A stretch of DNA of 64,000 nucleotides from Tetramitus jugosus (taxonomy: Eukaryota; Heterolobosea; Eutetramitea; Acrasida; Vahlkampfiidae), in the NCBI GenBank assembly GCA_937625935.1, contig OW569367.1, positions 186,001 through 250,000 on the forward strand, read 5' to 3'. Under the pieces are notes generated by a model. The model saw only the letters and a program-made list of their open reading frames with translations, was not told the DNA's origin and did no database searches. Of this stretch, positions 6,824 through 62,630 are shown piece after piece; positions within the stretch are counted from its first letter, which is position 1, and each line of letters starts with the position of its first letter. Position numbers and translations under genes: made by a program.

Positions 6824-8365
6824 ATGAGCTCGAGTAGTAATAGATCTTTGTCGATAGATGTGAGCTGTGAGGAACCTGTTGTCAAGAGACGGGTGAGCTT
6901 GAGAACACAAGCGTTGATGTGCCACAACAGACTCCAGGTTGAAATGTCTCCGAAGACAGACAAGAACATTGATATTGAAAATATAACAGAGGAAGAGATT
7001 GAGGCAGTGGTCATTGATCAGCTATTGACGCTCCGTCGAGGTCGTTTCATCACAGATATGAACAATAAGCAGATATATTCTTTGGCACAGCACATCATTG
7101 AGAACAGGAAGGATGAAATGCGAACGCTCGGTTCGACAATAGATGACTCATCGATGGAGACAATCATCATCAACGACGATAGTTTGATTGAGAATGGCGA
7201 ATTTGAATCAATAAGAAAATCTGAATACAATGTTATTCTTATTCATTCAATCATAAAGAACGAACTCCGAAAGAGGGCTTATCGATCACCAATTAAGAAT
7301 CACCTTAAGATGCTTCCAGAAAAATTCAAGTTGAGTGCAGGGGCTGATGAGCCAATGGTTCTTTCTGAACAATCCATCAACTATAAGGCTTCAAAGTTCT
7401 CAATCACCTTCAACAACTCAAAGTGGTGTACTGTTGATTGTTGCTCAACTAGTGGGGAAAGAAATAACATGGAGGACAGGTCTGTTGCTTTAGATGATCT
7501 AACTTCGATATTTGGTTTTGAACTGAAAGATACCCACCATGATGAATCTAACTTGACCTTCTTCGGAATATACGACGGACATGGTGGAAACACTTCTTCA
7601 GAGTACGCCAGAACTCATTTACATGCATATTTTATGCGCTCACTGCAACAGAGTATCAGAACAGAAACCTTTTTGGATTTTGAAGATCAAGTACTACTTG
7701 TGAAACAAGCTCTCGCTAGCTCCTTTTCAGAAACAGATAATCAATTTCTCTCTCTAGCGGAAGAGCTAGATTTGAGTTGTGGAACAACGGCTCTTGTAGC
7801 ATTGTTACTAGATCCTTCTATCAACCACAGCAAAAGCTCAGTTCAAGTCCGAAAGCTCATCGTGGCCAATGCCGGGGACTCCCAATGTGTTGTGAGTGTA
7901 CAGGGTAGTGCGATACCAATTAATAGAATACATAGACCAGATGAACCTTCAGAAAAGATTCGTATACAAGAGGCAGGCGGTAAAGTTTTCCACTGGTACG
8001 GTCAAGCGAGAGTCAATGGAATACTGGGTGTTAGCAGAGCTATTGGTGATCGGAAATACAAAGATTTAATAATCAACACACCAGATATTTACGAGTTCGA
8101 CTTGGAGGAGGGACTGAGCGAGTTTGTGATTATGGCTTCTGATGGCTTGTGGGATGTAGTGACACCTCAGGAAGCTGTAGATTTTGTTCATGACAAACGA
8201 AAAGGATCAGAACAGATTATTACCAGTCGAGAACTAGCAAAGAAATTAGTCGATTTAGCGATGCAAAGGAATAGCAAAGACAATGTGTCAGTCATTCTTC
8301 TAATGTTCAAACCGTTCTTACTTGAGCTCTCTGAAGAAGTCCTGAGTAGTCCATTCTTAGAATAA
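6824..8365 (+). CDS. PP2C-type (PPM) Ser/Thr protein phosphatase
   Basis: Single exon, 513 residues, ATG at 6824. The catalytic domain occupies about residues 195-505 with the expected ordered motifs: RNNMEDR (Glu217, Asp218), FFGIYDGHGG (metal-binding Asp251, Gly252), SCGTTALVALL, ANAGDSQCV, GVSRAIGDRKYK, ASDGLWDVV and DNVSVIL. The metal-coordinating acidic residues are present, so it should be an active Mn2+/Mg2+ phosphatase. The N-terminal 190 residues have no recognised domain. They contain EEIEAVVIDQLLTLRRG, which could be a short dimerising or docking helix. Substrates cannot be told from sequence. The next gene begins 42 bases downstream on the same strand. Confidence 0.94.
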   Translation: MSSSSNRSLSIDVSCEEPVVKRRVSLRTQALMCHNRLQVEMSPKTDKNIDIENITEEEIEAVVIDQLLTLRRGRFITDMNNKQIYSLAQHIIENRKDEMRTLGSTIDDSSMETIIINDDSLIENGEFESIRKSEYNVILIHSIIKNELRKRAYRSPIKNHLKMLPEKFKLSAGADEPMVLSEQSINYKASKFSITFNNSKWCTVDCCSTSGERNNMEDRSVALDDLTSIFGFELKDTHHDESNLTFFGIYDGHGGNTSSEYARTHLHAYFMRSLQQSIRTETFLDFEDQVLLVKQALASSFSETDNQFLSLAEELDLSCGTTALVALLLDPSINHSKSSVQVRKLIVANAGDSQCVVSVQGSAIPINRIHRPDEPSEKIRIQEAGGKVFHWYGQARVNGILGVSRAIGDRKYKDLIINTPDIYEFDLEEGLSEFVIMASDGLWDVVTPQEAVDFVHDKRKGSEQIITSRELAKKLVDLAMQRNSKDNVSVILLMFKPFLLELSEEVLSSPFLE

Positions 8366-55993: not shown

Positions 55994-58693
55994 ATGGGCA
56001 GTGTATTGCCATTGGACTTTCGAAAGAAACACCATAAGGAGTGGTATCTCGCAAAAACGCTCTGTATTTTGCTCATTCTCGTAACTGTTGGTCTCTACTA
56101 TGCAAGTGATCAGTTTTTGGGTAGCTTTACTGGAAATTCATCATCTTTGATAGTTGGTGATGATGCTCTTGGTACGTTGACCTTGAACAATCATTATCAT
56201 ATCAGTGGTGAGCATAGCTTTGATACGATGGAAGCAATTGGAGCACTCGCAGATGTGCAAGGAGGTGATAATGGAACATTTCCTTTTGCAAACTTGACTT
56301 CTTGCGCACCGAAAACCATTCCTTATGTGTATCGTTGTCAATTTGTGAGAAAACACAGTGCATGCGGCGCAAATGTGTACATGAGGATTCAATATTGCAC
56401 GTTTAAGAAGAAATTGGAACCACTTTATTTTATTTTGGCGGTAAGTACCACAAAGTTGGTTGAGTTGTTGTTTGTTTCATTTGGTGAAAAAGCTCACATG
56501 TTTTTTTGGCTCATTTCTGTGTGCGTGTAGATTCTATGGTTGTTGCTCTTGTTTTACTTGTTGGGAGATACTGCTGAAGCATACTTTTCCTCTTCTCTTA
56601 TTAAAATCTCTGGTTATTTGAGATTGAGCCCGAATATCGCTGGTGTGACGTTGTTGGCACTAGGAAATGGTGCACCTGATTTGAGTGCGATCATTGTGGG
56701 TGTTTTGTCAGGTGATACGGATATCGGTGTTGGTGCACCCATTGGTGGTGGTGTTTTTGTTACGACAGGCATGTATTTTCTTTACGAGGAACTATGCTTC
56801 TATAGTTTGAAGTTCTCGCTGTTTTGAGTTGGAGACATGACTAACATGGTTGCACATTTGTTGTTTTGTTTGTTAATTTGTGATTTGTTGTGAAAACTGG
56901 ATGATAGTGGTGTTGGGAGCTGTTATTTTGTTTGCTGATGTGAAAGTGACTCGGAGACCATTCATTCGTGATGTTGTTTTCTATCTCTGCTCCGTTCTCT
57001 GGGTGTTTATATGGTTCTTAACAAACAAGGTTTATATTTGGCAGAGTATCTTGTGCCTTGTATTGTATTTGCTGTATGTGTTGACTGTGGTGTTTGGTAG
57101 AATGATCTATCAAAGACTCAAGGCACGAAGATTAAAGAAGCAAGCGGTGACTGAATTGGAGAAGGCAGAGCAGAAGAAGAGCAGAAGATTAATGAAAAAG
57201 GAAAGAAAACAACAGAAGCAACAAACTGAAAATGCTGACTTGAGTGTTGGATTGTTAGACAATGAAATCGAGCCGGATATACAATCCGAAACGAGCTTAG
57301 TATCTCTTGTGATTAACGAGAACGAGAATTTTGGTAAGGAGATTGATTCGGATAGTGATTCAGATGATGACTCTGAATCTGAAGAAGAGCATTGGGCTGG
57401 TGGACTGTGGCGGCGAAAACCCTCCTTTGTTCAATACGATAGACAATCAAGTGTTGATTTGAAAGACGAGACAACTACAGAAGTACCGGAAATCTCTGAG
57501 ACGCCAGATGAGAATTCGAAACCAAAATTGAATCCTGCAAAGTCGTTCTTTTATGGCCCAAAGATGGGTATTGTCCAGAGAGGTAATGATGACGAAGCAT
57601 TGGTGATCAAAGAATATTTTGATGAAGAGGGAGATGGTATGTGTTTTTATTTTGGTTGTCGGCCATGGAGTATGGCGCTTACATGCATGTTTCTTAATCA
57701 TAAACAGAGAAGAAAAACGAAGAGCTCACAGAAGTGAACGACGATTCCGATGACGAAGTAAAGGAAAATAAGGTGAAGAAATTCTTGGTTGATCTCATTG
57801 ATTCCACAGGTTGGTTCGACATGCCATGGTACGAGAAGATTACCTTTGTTCTCTTTGGTGCCATACTCGCCCTGTTGCGTAATTTGACGATTCCAAAGTC
57901 TGATGACGAAGAATGGAACAAGTACTTTGCTACTCTCATCCCTATCTTCGCTCCAGTTGCTATTTTAGTTGCAATCAACAAAGTTCATATCTTGATTGGC
58001 AAAGTTTTCCCATTAGCTGTGTTGTTGGCACTGATTGGCGCAGTCCTTGGAGTTTTAGTCTTTTTGTCAACAAGAAGATCCAAACCTCCTATTTATCACT
58101 TTGTATGTATTATATTGTTGGATGTACTGTTGTCGCCGTAAGTATTTTATTAACAACCCGTTGTCATTTAGTTGTTTGTCATTTTCGCTTTCGGTATGTC
58201 CATCGTTTGGATTTATATGGTTGCAAATCAACTACTTAGCTTGTTGGAAGCATTGGGAAATGCTTGGGGAATTGACAAATCAGTACTTGCCCTTACTGTT
58301 TTAAGTTGGGGAAATTCCATCGGAGACATGATTAGTGACATTGTGATTGCTAAGCAAGGATTTCCGTCCATGGCCGTTGGAGCATGCCTAGGAGCACCGA
58401 TGCTCAATTTGCTGCTTGGTCTTGGTGTTGCCATGACTTTCACACCGGAGCAGTTATCCAAGAGATGCTTCTCAATGGAAGCTGATGCACCGACTGCTGT
58501 AGCATTCTTATTCCTGTTGGTTTCTCTGCTTAGTACGCTTATTGTGATTCCACTCTCTCGATTTAGGGGCTACAAAGTATATGGTGTATATCTTATGCTT
58601 TTGTATGTTTGTTATCTAGTGTTGGCGGTAACAACTGCACTGAATCCGAAGTTGACCAAGGCCTTCAGTTGGAAACTGGGTCGTGGTTGTTGA
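55994..58693 (+). CDS. Cation/Ca2+ exchanger of the CCX/NCLX (SLC8B1) family
   Basis: Five exons, 55994-56440, 56531-56768, 56908-57636, 57708-58102 and 58172-58693; 776 residues. The two alpha repeats carry LGNGAPDLSA (about 194-203) and WGNSIGDMISD (about 649-659), the ion-binding signature of the CCX/NCLX branch of Na+(K+)/Ca2+ exchangers. About eleven hydrophobic helices surround an acidic, basic-flanked cytosolic loop (about 320-500, with DSDSDDDSESEEE). Intron 2 begins with GC instead of GT (ACAG|GCATGT). The N-terminal region after the first helix is Asn-glycosylation-like (NGTFPFANLTS) and has cysteines, as in plant CCX/NCLX proteins. Location (plasma membrane, vacuole or mitochondria) is not clear. 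Confidence 0.9.
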
Positions 58694-58739
58694 AATTAAA
58701 AGTTTACAATTTCCAAGGATGTAGTTCGGTGAAATAAAA

Positions 58740-58804
58740 CCCATAATAAAAAAATTATGATTTCCCGAGAAGACACCTTAACGCTCCTACATAATCGGGA
58801 CTTA
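58740..58804 (-). ncRNA. Candidate guide-RNA (omega-RNA-like) scaffold at the Fanzor 3' end
   Basis: Immediately after the Fanzor stop codon (minus strand) is a stem with 6-base arms, TCCCGA (58763-58768) and TCGGGA (58795-58800), around a 26-base loop. Next to it lies a second perfect inverted repeat, CATAAT-A6-ATTATG (58742-58759). TnpB and Fanzor proteins use structured RNAs that overlap or follow the 3' end of their own gene, so this placement fits. The assignment rests on position and folding by eye; the true RNA boundaries and guide are unknown, and the second hairpin could be a polyadenylation-region feature of the neighbouring exchanger gene. Confidence 0.4.
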
Positions 58805-60577
58805 CATAGCAGCTTGATGGAGTGAGCCTTGGAGGTGTTCCACCATTTTGATTAATTCTTTTGCGACTCGGACGACAGAGACATTCAACGTTCCATTCCT
58901 GTCTATTCTCTTATGCTTGACTGGCTTCATGTGAGAATGGCAATGATGACATTTCTGACTTGTCATGAACTCGTCGATCATTTTCACTTTGAAGTGCTCA
59001 TTCAACTTTTTCAATAGCTTTCCTTTTGGTGTTGGAGCATGTCCTTTGTAACAATGACCAAAACCAGCATTGCCCATCCCAATTAACATGCTTCTTCCAT
59101 TTGCTCTCTTTCGAAAGTCATTCATAACATTGGCAATCGTCTTATCTCTCATTATATAGCTATCCCAATTCAGTCTCTTCACCTTTGGGGTGCAATAAAA
59201 ATTCAACAAATCATCCTCGACTTTCAATACAGAATTGATGTGTTCAAGGAACAGACCACTTGTTGGTACACCGGCCTGTTTGATTGAGTTTTGGAGTTCA
59301 TCCAAGTTCTTCTCATTCATTTCGTTCCATTCTGCTTTGTATTTCAACAATCGCTTGGAGTTTTTCGAATGGTGGGACAGATGTCTATATGTTTTGTTAG
59401 ACAACTCCCACTTCTTGCCATCTGAATCAACACAACTCACCAACGTAACAATACCCGGGTCAATCCCAACCAAATATTCAGCACCTTCGTTCATACTTGT
59501 TTCCTTCTTTCTCTTCTTTGCTTCTTTCTGGTCCTTGGATTCCTTTGCCTTATTGTTCTTGTGATTGCCAACGAGTTGATGTCTGAGAACAACAGAGGCC
59601 TGAATACCGTCAGTTCTGATTGAGTCGATTTGAATCTTCTTTGTTCCAACATTCAAACACTTGAGATTACACTTCAATTCAGTTGACTCCTCGCCCTTCT
59701 TTTGTCTTCCTTGTTTCTTCTGTTTAAGCATATCAACTAATTCCTTTGTGCCAATCTCCATACACCTGCACTTGAAATGAGACAAAGGAAGTAGTGCAAA
59801 CGATTTCATATTATTGTTGATCAGAAATTGTTGAACATGCCAGTAAAACTTCAGCATGTTATTGGTGTTGTTCTTCACAAATGATTCATCAATTATTTCA
59901 TCAGTTTTAGCATCAACAAGTGTTCGAACCTCTCGGATCAACACAGGAATCGTCTCTATCAACTCTTTTGGAGGCAATTTGATAAAATCGTGGACAGGAG
60001 TGCTAAATGTCAACCTTCTGATAATGTATTCAACAACCCTTCTTTGTTCTGACTTTGGAATAGATGAGTCACTGTGTAGTTGATTCATTCTGACCCTCAG
60101 ATACTTCCTCAGTCTTGGTTCCAATGTGAACTTGAGCATGTTGGAGATGTTGACATTGAGAGACCTGGCAACATAATTGATGGACGTGGCAAAACTCTGA
60201 TAAATCTTTCTGAGTTTGACTACTACATCGTCCATGTTGACAGACTCGTTGATGAGACTTAAGTTATTGTCTCTTGGTTTTGAATTGCGTCCAAACAACA
60301 CAGAACCTAATCTTTGAAGAAACACTTGATCTAATAAAGGGATTTGATAGTCAGACTCCAAGTGCCTCAAAACGAATATGTTTATAAATCTTGTGAGTCG
60401 AAGAGCAATCCTTGTAATCTCCAGAGCTTGAGTCTGTATGATTGGTAACAGAGTTGGATGATGCAACAACAGAGACTTCAGACCGACCTTGACCACGTAA
60501 TGTGATGAGTATTCATTCTTTTTGACAGTCTCTCTCTTTCTCTTTCTCTTGCCGTCCTTCGGCACGCCTCGTGGCAT
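58802..60577 (-). CDS. Fanzor: eukaryotic TnpB-like RNA-guided nuclease
   Basis: Single exon, 591 residues, minus strand, ATG at 60577 (MPRGVPKDGKRKRKRE), which is an evident nuclear localisation signal. RuvC-I is GIDPG with Asp373. The RuvC-II region LIGMGNAGFG (498-507) lacks the usual Glu, but Glu536 in MIDEFMTSQKC occupies the relocated Glu position described for Fanzors. The zinc ribbon keeps only one pair, Cys543/Cys546 (CHHCHSH). RuvC-III would be Asp559 in IDRNGTLN. The N-terminal 360 residues are helical and basic, like the WED/REC part. Fanzors are programmable DNA nucleases guided by omega-RNA and carried by transposons; a Fanzor from Naegleria lovaniensis has been studied experimentally. 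No transposase gene is adjacent. Integrity of the C-terminus is questionable. Confidence 0.9.
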   Translation of the reverse strand: MPRGVPKDGKRKRKRETVKKNEYSSHYVVKVGLKSLLLHHPTLLPIIQTQALEITRIALRLTRFINIFVLRHLESDYQIPLLDQVFLQRLGSVLFGRNSKPRDNNLSLINESVNMDDVVVKLRKIYQSFATSINYVARSLNVNISNMLKFTLEPRLRKYLRVRMNQLHSDSSIPKSEQRRVVEYIIRRLTFSTPVHDFIKLPPKELIETIPVLIREVRTLVDAKTDEIIDESFVKNNTNNMLKFYWHVQQFLINNNMKSFALLPLSHFKCRCMEIGTKELVDMLKQKKQGRQKKGEESTELKCNLKCLNVGTKKIQIDSIRTDGIQASVVLRHQLVGNHKNNKAKESKDQKEAKKRKKETSMNEGAEYLVGIDPGIVTLVSCVDSDGKKWELSNKTYRHLSHHSKNSKRLLKYKAEWNEMNEKNLDELQNSIKQAGVPTSGLFLEHINSVLKVEDDLLNFYCTPKVKRLNWDSYIMRDKTIANVMNDFRKRANGRSMLIGMGNAGFGHCYKGHAPTPKGKLLKKLNEHFKVKMIDEFMTSQKCHHCHSHMKPVKHKRIDRNGTLNVSVVRVAKELIKMVEHLQGSLHQAAM

Positions 60578-60585
60578 AATGTTAT

Positions 60586-60633
60586 TGTATTTGTTGTGTG
60601 GTGTATTTGTTGTGTGTTGTATTTGTTGTGTGA
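60586..60633. repeat. Three tandem 16-bp repeats in the Fanzor leader
   Basis: The unit TGTATTTGTTGTGTG(G/T/A) occurs at 60586-60601, 60602-60617 and 60618-60633, differing only in the last base. It begins nine bases upstream of the Fanzor ATG and reads CACAACAAATACA on the sense strand. Confidence 0.9.
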
Positions 60634-60949
60634 GTTGAATCAAACAGCGAAAAAGACAGCGCTTTTTAAACCGAGGAAGATGGCCGTTGCCGTTGTAAAG
60701 ACAGTCTCAACGGAAATTTTTACAACTGCACCAATTCCGCAGCTTAGAGGAAACTGATACAACATTTATTGTATTTTTTTATAATATATCCACCTATCTA
60801 TCCAATCTTGAACCAAACGAAAGACAACGAAAAACTTTCTCTCTGACACGACAACAACAACAACGAAAAACACAAGTCGCACAACGAACATCAACAACAA
60901 CAACAACAACCAAATCAATCAAAAAAGATGGAGAGTCGACAAGAGGTGT
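60634..60949. other. Promoter-like spacer with an orphan plus-strand start codon
   Basis: An AT-rich region with CAA-repeat leader (ACAACAACAACAAC) of the kind that precedes genes in this genome, ending in AAAAAAG then ATG at 60929. That plus-strand frame (MESRQEVSICSVHC) stops after 35 codons because it runs into the antisense VPS35 piece. It looks like the 5' end of a gene whose body has been replaced. Confidence 0.5.
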
Positions 60950-61597
60950 CTATTTGCAGTGTGCATTGTAGATTCTCTGAGCAAGTTTCAAGTAGGAGAA
61001 TACAAGCGGTACCAATGTGTATTGAATTCTCTTGACACCACCCTGACCAAAGTGCTTTCTGGCTGCGGCCAAAACTTTAAACAATTGATCAGTATCGCTA
61101 TTATCAAACAAATGAACCAATCTGGCAATCAAGTTCTGTTCTTCTTCGAAATCTTCGAGCAATGTTGCAGCTATTGGTGAGTCGTCAGAAGGTGAGAATG
61201 TTGTTTGGTCTTCCTCATCCTTCAACAGTGGACGAATCAAATCAAACAGTTTGTTCACTTGTTCAAATGTTGAAATCTTGTGTCCATTGTCAAGTGCGCA
61301 TCTCACAATGCTCAGTGCAATAAACTTTCTCTGTTCATATCCAAGAGAATGAATAATATCACCATACTTCTCCAACTTCAAAACTGTTAGCACATTGTTG
61401 TATGACTCGAGTGGCACCAACAACAATCGCTTCAACATCTCTACAATTTCATCTGAAGCAAGTGCAGTGCTATTCAATTGACTAGCAATGTTATTAATAA
61501 TCTTGTTGACATAGTCAGTGTTATCAGGATATGTTTGAAGAGCAAGTGTCATCAATGAGATCTGAATACTCAAGTTATCGGACAATTCAACACCTCT
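60950..61597 (-). pseudogene. VPS35: Internal fragment of retromer subunit VPS35
   Basis: An open stretch of about 215 codons without a start ATG, bounded upstream by TAG at 61600 and downstream by TAG at 60950. It follows VPS35 closely over the middle of the protein (human residues about 390-600): LSIQISLMTLALQTYPDNTD, LESYNNVLTVLKLEKYGD, VNKLFDLIRPLLKDEEDQT, FEEEQNLIARLVHLF and ARKHFGQGGVKRIQYTLVPL. Neither the N-terminal nor the C-terminal domain is present on either side, and no convincing splice sites join further exons. It is a truncated duplicate, probably non-functional; the frame itself is still intact, so the event may be recent. Confidence 0.8.
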
Positions 61598-61718
61598 CTA
61601 ATGGTATCAATAGGACAGAATTTGACAAACGTCAGAAAACTCATACTCATCATCAGGTCACCCGCATTCACGATGTCCTTCAGAGTGTTTGTTTTCTGTT
61701 TTTTGCAAGTTTTTTTTG

Positions 61719-62042
61719 ATGAAAAAAATACAAGGAAAAGGCGCCAAAAGAAGACATAACCAACACCAACAATTGGTAAAGTTTGGAGTCAAAAGAAAAG
61801 TAAGAATAACCGATATACATATTGATTTATTTGTGTATCTAGTTGGTTCGTTCCTTGGTGTAGAAGATGTGTTGAATTTGGTATTGACCTGTCGGGATTT
61901 TCGATCTTCGATAGTCAATAATCTATCAACAATAAGGTCTTATATGGACAATTTGTACTCATACTGTTTGGCCGTTTGCAGGTCAGGCTTACCGTGCAAA
62001 TTGCAAAGGAAATTTTTTGTGCCTGTTTTGATTGCTTGTTGA
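61719..62042 (+). CDS. Short F-box-like reading frame
   Basis: 107 codons, ATG at 61719 (MKKIQGKGAKRRHNQHQQ). Residues about 25-65 (VRITDIHIDLFVYLVGSFLG, VEDVLNLVLTCRDFRSSIVN) resemble an F-box, the Skp1-binding motif of SCF ligases: a helix, then DVLNLVLTCRDF. There is no substrate-binding part before the stop. It may be a truncated remnant of a longer F-box gene, since the following 550 bases hold only short broken frames. Confidence 0.45.
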   Translation: MKKIQGKGAKRRHNQHQQLVKFGVKRKVRITDIHIDLFVYLVGSFLGVEDVLNLVLTCRDFRSSIVNNLSTIRSYMDNLYSYCLAVCRSGLPCKLQRKFFVPVLIAC

Positions 62043-62630
62043 ATCAACAAGTACTTGACCGCATCCTAAGCAGAACCATGAGGCAGTATTCATTATAATA
62101 CTCTTGGCTGAGACGGAACCACAGCCGGAACAGAACCATTGATGAGATGTGGCAACCATGATCGTAAGCTTGTGTTTGTGATTGGGTGTCGTGCACCTGT
62201 TTTTTTGGGCAGTCTGGAAAATTTATAGGTAGAGTTCTATTTATACGTTGAGGTCCAACGAACTACATCCTTAAGAACAGAGCATCTATCGTGAATCTGG
62301 GATTTCTCATCACTAGGTGAGCATTCTTTCCCTGCTGGCCATAATTGGCCAGAATCAACATCTCCACTGACTTTGTGCCCAACAGTTCTTATACTTGTTA
62401 TGATAAATCGTTCTGGCTTCCTAAAATTTGGGGCAGCTCGAATTTCGACTTCCCATCATAACAAACTACACCTAGGTACACCACAGATTCGATCTCTCCA
62501 ATGGACTTGAAGTCAGCAGAGACTGTGATCTGAGGGTCTTTGGTCACTGGAAGTTGTTGAGTATAGTTTCTAATTGATTCAACCTTATTAAAAAGATATT
62601 ACAAAAACTCAATGGAGGTATGTCGTCCAT
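62043..62630. other. Gene-poor stretch with decayed coding scraps
   Basis: About 590 bases without an intact gene. It contains a short plus-strand piece (QQVLDRILSRTMRQYSL), a 7-bp-arm hairpin CTGGCCA-TAAT-TGGCCAG at 62335-62352, and a minus-strand coding-like piece at 62398-62595 described separately. Confidence 0.5.
62398..62595 (-). pseudogene. Coding-like fragment of unknown origin
   Basis: Between two stop codons the minus strand encodes about 60 residues of protein-like character (PVTKDPQITVSADFKSIGEI, then ESVVYLGVVCYDGKSKFELP) with no ATG of its own. A 56-base GT-AG intron could link it to an ATG about 60 bases upstream (MDDIPPLSF), which would give a small protein ending QNDLS. I do not recognise it; it may be a remnant exon. 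Confidence 0.3.

Follow-up and report, generated by a model that had tools for sequence, protein, structure and literature searches.

A probably nuclease-dead Fanzor1 copy in a family of Kolobok-like, TTAA-flanked elements of Tetramitus jugosus

Does the Fanzor gene found in a 64,000-nucleotide stretch of the Tetramitus jugosus genome (contig OW569367.1, positions 186,001 to 250,000; hereafter the window) encode a working RNA-guided nuclease, and is it a stranded mobile copy or a gene domesticated by its host? The window corresponds to C24:186001-250000 in our own numbering of the searched genome (26.35 Mb, 56 contigs). We are confident that this Fanzor1 copy was inserted recently and is by now nuclease-dead, and that its carrier is a non-autonomous, TTAA-duplicating DNA transposon with Kolobok-like ends.

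A search of PDB sequences with the window protein alone matched SpuFz1, the Fanzor of Spizellomyces punctatus (PDB 8gkh), at E 5.6e-8, and a five-sequence profile that included the window copy matched it at E 1.9e-21; the resemblance to Fanzor is therefore not due to chance. Counted along the printed alignments, D373 of the window protein is paired with SpuFz1 D383 and E536 with E541, two of the four residues (D383, E541, N385, and D606) that hold two magnesium ions in the solved structure (PMC10432273; this and the other papers given by PMC number are cited from the portions of their text that were available). The protein contains the motifs GIDPG (residues 371-375), MIDEF (533-537), and CHHC (543-546), and its N-terminus is basic (GKRKRKR...). 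The spacing E536-x6-C543 is that of the Fanzor hallmark, a relocated catalytic Glu six residues ahead of the first CxxC (PMC10711439). The Fanzor motif of Bao & Jurka 2013, D-X(125,275)-[TS][TS]-X-X-[C4 zinc finger]-X(5,50)-RD, is present in its first part (D373...T539 S540 Q K C543). Judged by SpuFz1, the sole solved Fanzor matched, the protein appears to be of the Fanzor1 type. The original prediction of a Fanzor, made from a 591-residue frame with these motifs and with Asp373 and Glu536 as RuvC residues, was correct on each of these points, the frame lying on the minus strand. Its call for a match to Fanzor or TnpB profiles was answered in part: SpuFz1 was matched, and the window protein missed the Pfam TNB cut-off (PF07282; 21.3 bits against 26.3).

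The third catalytic residue, which that prediction had not considered, is gone. The window frame has 591 residues against 637 in the nearest copies, owing to a 138-bp in-frame deletion of 46 codons that takes the second cysteine pair (C-x4-C) and the RuvC-III motif HNRDINAAKN with its Asp, the residue paired with SpuFz1 D606 in the profile alignment. We compared 17 frames from the 20 loci described below, leaving out L035, L039, and L040, whose frames are otherwise broken. Both C-x4-C and HNRDINAAKN follow the first CxxC in all 16 other full-length frames, which also contain the full C4 zinc finger and RD of the Bao & Jurka motif; the window copy has neither. RuvC-I reads GIDPG in 16 of the 17 frames and GVDPG in L028. 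Four intact relatives from sequence archives (P0001-P0004, 59-75% identical) scored 35-38 bits with Pfam TNB, over the cut-off. With NCBIfam, P0001 matched TnpB at E 1.7e-8 and 34 bits, below the model cut-off of 100, and the window copy gave no TnpB match. Because the RuvC-III Asp and half of the zinc ribbon are deleted, the window copy is very probably nuclease-dead; it could at most bind its target, not cut it, and the expectation of a working nuclease at this locus was not supported.

Copies of the gene, for which a genome search had been suggested, are numerous. The window protein gave 75 matches in its own genome, including 20 uninterrupted frames (the window included) running from residue 1 to at least residue 573. 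A frame on C27 becomes the twenty-first if its two matches, both in one 649-residue frame, are joined; the rest are fragments. The window Fanzor is 98-99% identical to five other copies, and its overall synonymous divergence (dS) from L025 is 0.019. All 27 places matched by PF07282 coincide with places of this family, and that search revealed no second Fanzor type in the genome. L035 carries about 200 bp extra within its Fanzor frame (7560-7764 of the locus), an intron or an insertion. Two peptide patterns, run once over viral contigs, picked out 320 stretches and no confirmed relative.

We read the 20 loci over 9,901 bp each and searched for their ends with repeat patterns that include TTAA and permit mismatches. 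These patterns located the left inverted repeat in 16 of the loci and the right one in all 20. Of the 16 loci with both ends, 15 carry TTAA on either side, and only the window copy departs from this, with TTAA on the left and TTGG on the right. The ends fall into two types, A (GGATGTAGTTCG) and B (GGTGGCGGTC), and the left and right types agree in 16 of 16 elements, which measure 2.55-4.63 kb. Genome-wide, the type A end gave 19 exact matches against none for a reversed control pattern, and type B gave 44 matches at no more than one mismatch against 4 for its control. The terminal letters, which the search patterns contain, are GG at all 22 left ends and CC at all 37 right ends. The flanks of the copies thus delimited an element, as had been proposed, and the gene lies inside it (Table 1). 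No transposase stands beside the Fanzor, which accords with the earlier suggestion of a non-autonomous copy; intact copies would move by a transposase supplied in trans.

Table 1 Features of the Fanzor element in the window (positions in the window).
Feature	Position	Strand	Basis or remark
Non-autonomous TTAA-type transposon, 3,562 bp including both flanking tetranucleotides	58713..62274	-	Ends, length, and DNA common to 19 other loci
Left TTAA duplication, preceded by C	62271..62274	-	Only left flank of 22 without A/T there
Left inverted repeat, type A: GGATGTAGTTCG...	62255..62270	-	End pattern search
TATAAATAG box, some 30 bp in from the left end	62236..62244	-	Sequence; putative promoter
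Captured host VPS35 fragment	60960..61634	-	98.1% DNA identity to C22:83229-83909
Fanzor gene, 591 residues, 46 short (ATG at 60577, stop codon ending at 58802)	58802..60577	-	Frame; genome, PDB, and profile searches
Basic N-terminus (GKRKRKRETVKK), possible nuclear localisation signal	60518..60559	-	Sequence; putative function
Junction left by the 138-bp in-frame deletion, with 1 bp of microhomology	58866..58870	-	Coordinate from residue 570/571
Predicted omega-RNA scaffold	58713..58822	-	Fold: stop-codon hairpin, then terminal helix
Right inverted repeat and right tetranucleotide TTGG	58713..58730	-	TTAA in 19 of 20 loci
Predicted guide, the 20 nt directly beyond the right end	58693..58712	-	Analogy with known Fanzors

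The right end of the element is predicted to encode a guide RNA. Its last 159 bp are matched, whole or in part, at 37 places in the genome; two of these (C8:461472, 97%, and C4:597967, 96%) keep the right end over 134 nt and only the last 22-23 codons of the Fanzor. Folded as a single strand, the last 110 nt are predicted to form a hairpin that spans the stop codon, followed by a long arm; UUAAGG/CCUUAA closes this arm by pairing an internal TTAAGG with the right end itself (CCTTGG in the window, CCTTAA in other copies). Since this closing helix includes the terminal CCUUAA, the TTAA duplication is part of the predicted scaffold. Guide RNAs of Fanzor1 include the transposon end and the duplication within their scaffold (PMC10711439), and the predicted fold therefore agrees with known biology. 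Shuffling gave z-scores of -2.57 for the window, -3.08 for L025, -2.96 for L031, -3.05 for L036, and -3.72 for L042, a copy on C32 whose protein is 41 and 47% identical over two matches and whose right end has another sequence with the same predicted layout, without the overlap with the stop codon. A pseudoknot of the internal TTAAGG with the right end had also been considered and was dropped, the 110-nt minimum-energy folds giving a plain closing helix. An intact Fanzor would use this right-end RNA, with the first ~15-20 nt outside the element as guide; after excision it would cut the empty site (TTAA plus flank), and repair would copy the element back. At the window locus the predicted guide runs to the stop codon of a Na/Ca-exchanger gene (PF01699).

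The sequences flanking the two ends differ. The 22 left flanks that we collected comprise 16 from the 20 loci and 6 from L042, L044, and some of the other pattern matches; of the 37 right flanks, 20 come from the 20 loci and 17 from those further sources. The base before the left TTAA is A or T in 21 of 22 cases, the exception being the window copy, against 22 of 37 for the base after the right TTAA (Fisher p 0.0024); the background of A/T before TTAA in the window is 60%. T occupies 40 of the 66 left positions within three bases of TTAA and 30 of 111 on the mirrored right side (permutation p 0.0005). Where both flanks of an element were available (17 elements), A/T was found at 16 left and 9 right sides, and a paired test on T gave p 0.042. 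Inside the element, all 37 right ends have C before the tetranucleotide (TTGG in the window), a letter that the search patterns include. At the first base after the right TTAA, where the predicted guide would start, C occurs in 1 of 37 cases and G in 14.

One explanation, with a chance approaching even, is that the asymmetry comes from a transposase inserting its ends in a preferred orientation rather than from a target motif of the Fanzor. Any asymmetric end complex could yield such a bias, and the evidence for the bias itself includes only 22 left flanks and a weak paired test; on the other hand, TTAA is palindromic, the right flanks lie near background, and the biased side is the one on which target motifs sit in TnpB and Fanzor systems, being the left side in known Fanzors. 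We tentatively raise a second possibility, which the flanks suggest but which is rather unlikely: a target motif 5'-W-TTAA (W, A or T), on the T-rich side, would let the Fanzors of this family tell an empty site from the donor by one base. Cuts made at empty sites, with other copies as templates for repair, would then also promote the swapping of nuclease modules among the copies. Such a W would part the two because the right end of the donor, too, has the duplication and the guide target. Each base of TTAA is needed by GtFz1, a Fanzor1 of Guillardia theta (PMC11423790). The family, with at least 20 long copies and mapped ends, bears on how a Fanzor in a target-duplicating transposon avoids cutting the right end of its own donor.

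Two transposon types could account for the ends. Kolobok elements have TTAA and 5'-RR/YY-3' termini (R, purine; Y, pyrimidine), unlike piggyBac, and their hosts include Naegleria (PMC9587614). Both the TTAA target duplication and RR...YY termini (GG...CC) are present here, and to judge by these Kolobok fits better than piggyBac; we use the term Kolobok-like for the ends only. The Kolobok superfamily (KolobokP, KolobokE) shares with our elements the duplication, the 5'-RR...YY-3' ends, and an extra carried nuclease (PMC9587614), whereas here no transposase was found in the elements and the nuclease carried is a Fanzor. That the elements are of piggyBac type instead is unlikely. PiggyBac also targets TTAA, and 12 PF13843 matches over the cut-off show that its transposases occur in this genome, but the ends are GG...CC and the RR/YY termini set Kolobok apart from piggyBac (PMC9587614); none of the 12 matches lies within 50 kb of any listed type A or type B end, the two patterns searched, and no piggyBac transposase was thus seen between the same repeats. 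The one piggyBac locus that we read (L041) also seems to have a different repeat. We accordingly rated a piggyBac carrier, with its other ends and unshared repeats, below a Kolobok-like one. The PF13843 matches are on C7, C34, C18, C30, C40, C5, C49, C39, and C51, and pairs with identical scores (C18/C39, C18/C30) suggest recent copies.

Type A right ends also occur without a Fanzor, at L065 (C47:119538-120147) and at C52:91097-91291, where they adjoin a basic protein. Its 166-residue frame has no Pfam match at the cut-off, and by our reading ankyrin-like frames lie upstream; a third copy of the protein is at C1:696987-697358. It may be an autonomous partner or a captured host gene. PF20700 and PF05485, which we took to be possible Kolobok markers, had no match in this genome and likewise none in any control genome.

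Several observations weigh against parts of the account favoured here, a dead Fanzor1 copy in a Kolobok-like element. The left repeat was not found by pattern in four of the 20 loci (L026, L028, L035, L038), no transposase was recognised among the listed frames of four elements (L025, L027, L031, L036), and none bearing the elements' own ends was identified. The RNA helix is backed by few independent sequences, namely one family plus the C32 copy; folds of 95 or 170 nt close other helices in some copies; RNAalifold, run on 12 sequences, recovered the hairpin, two small stems, and the closing helix but only part of the arm; and L023, L027, and L038 carry deletions within the predicted arm. The loss of RuvC-III and of part of the zinc ribbon could be tolerated in a protein that still binds, the word dead being a judgement by homology.

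Such a role, in which a domesticated, nuclease-dead Fanzor would act as a regulator that its RNA guides to bind DNA at the 3' end of the exchanger gene, is highly improbable. TldR, a bacterial family of dead regulators, is its proposed counterpart; the frame is still open after the deletion, the predicted right-end fold is nearly intact, and the predicted guide reaches the exchanger stop codon, some 20 bp away. Against this, the guide is merely the insertion flank, the right TTAA of the copy is mutated, unrelated deletions in other copies (L039, L040, L023, L027, L038) amount to ordinary decay, and selection has had little time because the copy is 98-99% identical to five others. A TldR-like regulator would be expected to share its dead site with its relatives and to have a fixed target; here the deletion is private to the window copy among the 17 frames. 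We saw no sign of separate selection, and the domestication that had been raised as an option was rejected on the youth of the copy and its private deletion.

The elements carry host DNA as well. Upstream of the Fanzor, a frame of 211 residues (60953-61585) matches VPS35 (Pfam PF03635, E 1.4e-44) and has 26 matches in the genome, some of them mere pieces; we took C22:83284-83910, in a 450-residue frame, as the host VPS35 gene. One and the same captured stretch, running from 80 to 760 in L043, is present in 11 of the 20 loci at 96.8-98.5% DNA identity and its first half (80 to 423) in 3, while 6 have none of it. The simplest reading is one capture that then spread with the Fanzor elements. The 11 full segments differ from the host gene by 4-6 synonymous and 1-3 non-synonymous changes; selection on the VPS35 piece was considered and discarded, since the synonymous excess is small and is explained by recent capture. 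Elsewhere in the window element, a weak F-box-like frame (61689-62042, plus strand; E 0.037, below the cut-off) is perhaps a second captured host piece. In 11 of 16 elements, of both end types, the TATAAATAG box is no more than 60 bp from the left end, and a promoter may thus travel with that end. A tRNA scan of the 64-kb window found none.

The Fanzor frames themselves are mosaic, built of blocks that diverged long ago and are under purifying selection. Within the 17 frames, blocks near synonymous saturation stand beside near-identical ones: L025 and L031 differ by 70 synonymous changes in codons 61-300, 5 in codons 301-360, and 3 in codons 361-655, and L025 and L028 by 40 in codons 301-420 and 15 elsewhere. 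The overall ratio of non-synonymous to synonymous divergence is 0.16-0.19 in six of seven pairs and 0.26 in the pair that includes the window copy, whose two members are very close. These mosaics are explained by functional lineages that persisted for long and exchanged blocks by recombination or gene conversion; that Fanzor cuts drive the exchange of nuclease blocks is speculation. The last protein block is 97-100% identical among the 17 frames and nearly as conserved in a C1 copy with one stop and an overall identity of 60%, and a constraint from the RNA on this block is possible.

Of the known systems compared, SpuFz1 is matched by the family profile over the C-terminal part, with the three catalytic residues (D383, E541, D606) and C-x4-C. 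The SpuFz1 system likewise is multi-copy and has inverted repeats, no transposase in its elements, a right-end RNA, and ghost copies (PMC10432273), which the right-end remnants on C8 and C4 resemble. It differs in that its target-adjacent motif (TAM) is CATA, whereas TTAA is predicted here; sequence similarity is weak, and the window copy lacks a D606 counterpart. The TAM of GtFz1 is, like the duplication flanking these elements, TTAA, given as 5'-TTAAN in PMC10432273 and as 5'-TTAA in PMC11423790, one sentence of which swaps two TAMs. GtFz1 has Asn as its third catalytic residue (PMC11423790), and its loci are seemingly without inverted repeats in the available text of PMC10432273, while here repeats and duplication are clear. 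NlovFz2, a Fanzor2 of Naegleria lovaniensis, is likewise an RNA-guided nuclease from a heterolobosean; its TAM is CCG and it was reported without repeats (PMC10432273, available text), and it was not among the four PDB matches of the single-protein search or the four of the profile search. NlovFz2 and the reported Kolobok elements of Naegleria are at most consistent with the amoeboflagellate genome of the original prediction. Earlier-described DNA transposons with captured Fanzor1 are also chimeric, sharing one half and differing in the other; they include no TTAA-specific elements as far as their available main text goes, where 'ttaa' occurs 0 times. In the available open-licence literature, including PMC10432273, PMC3627910, PMC10711439, and PMC11423790, we came across no Fanzor described within an inverted-repeat element that TTAA flanks, and no paper naming both Fanzor and Kolobok.

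In summary, the window holds an ordinary dead copy in an unusual family, one that joins Fanzor1, non-autonomous Kolobok-like elements, host-gene capture, shuffled nuclease blocks, and a possible self-sparing motif. The copy itself is a caution that hallmark motifs may persist where the active site has gone. TTAA-specific, Kolobok-like elements are an addition to the described carriers of Fanzor1 and offer a possible reason for the TTAA motif of a Fanzor such as GtFz1, and the family indicates that nuclease blocks near synonymous saturation can be swapped within one frame.

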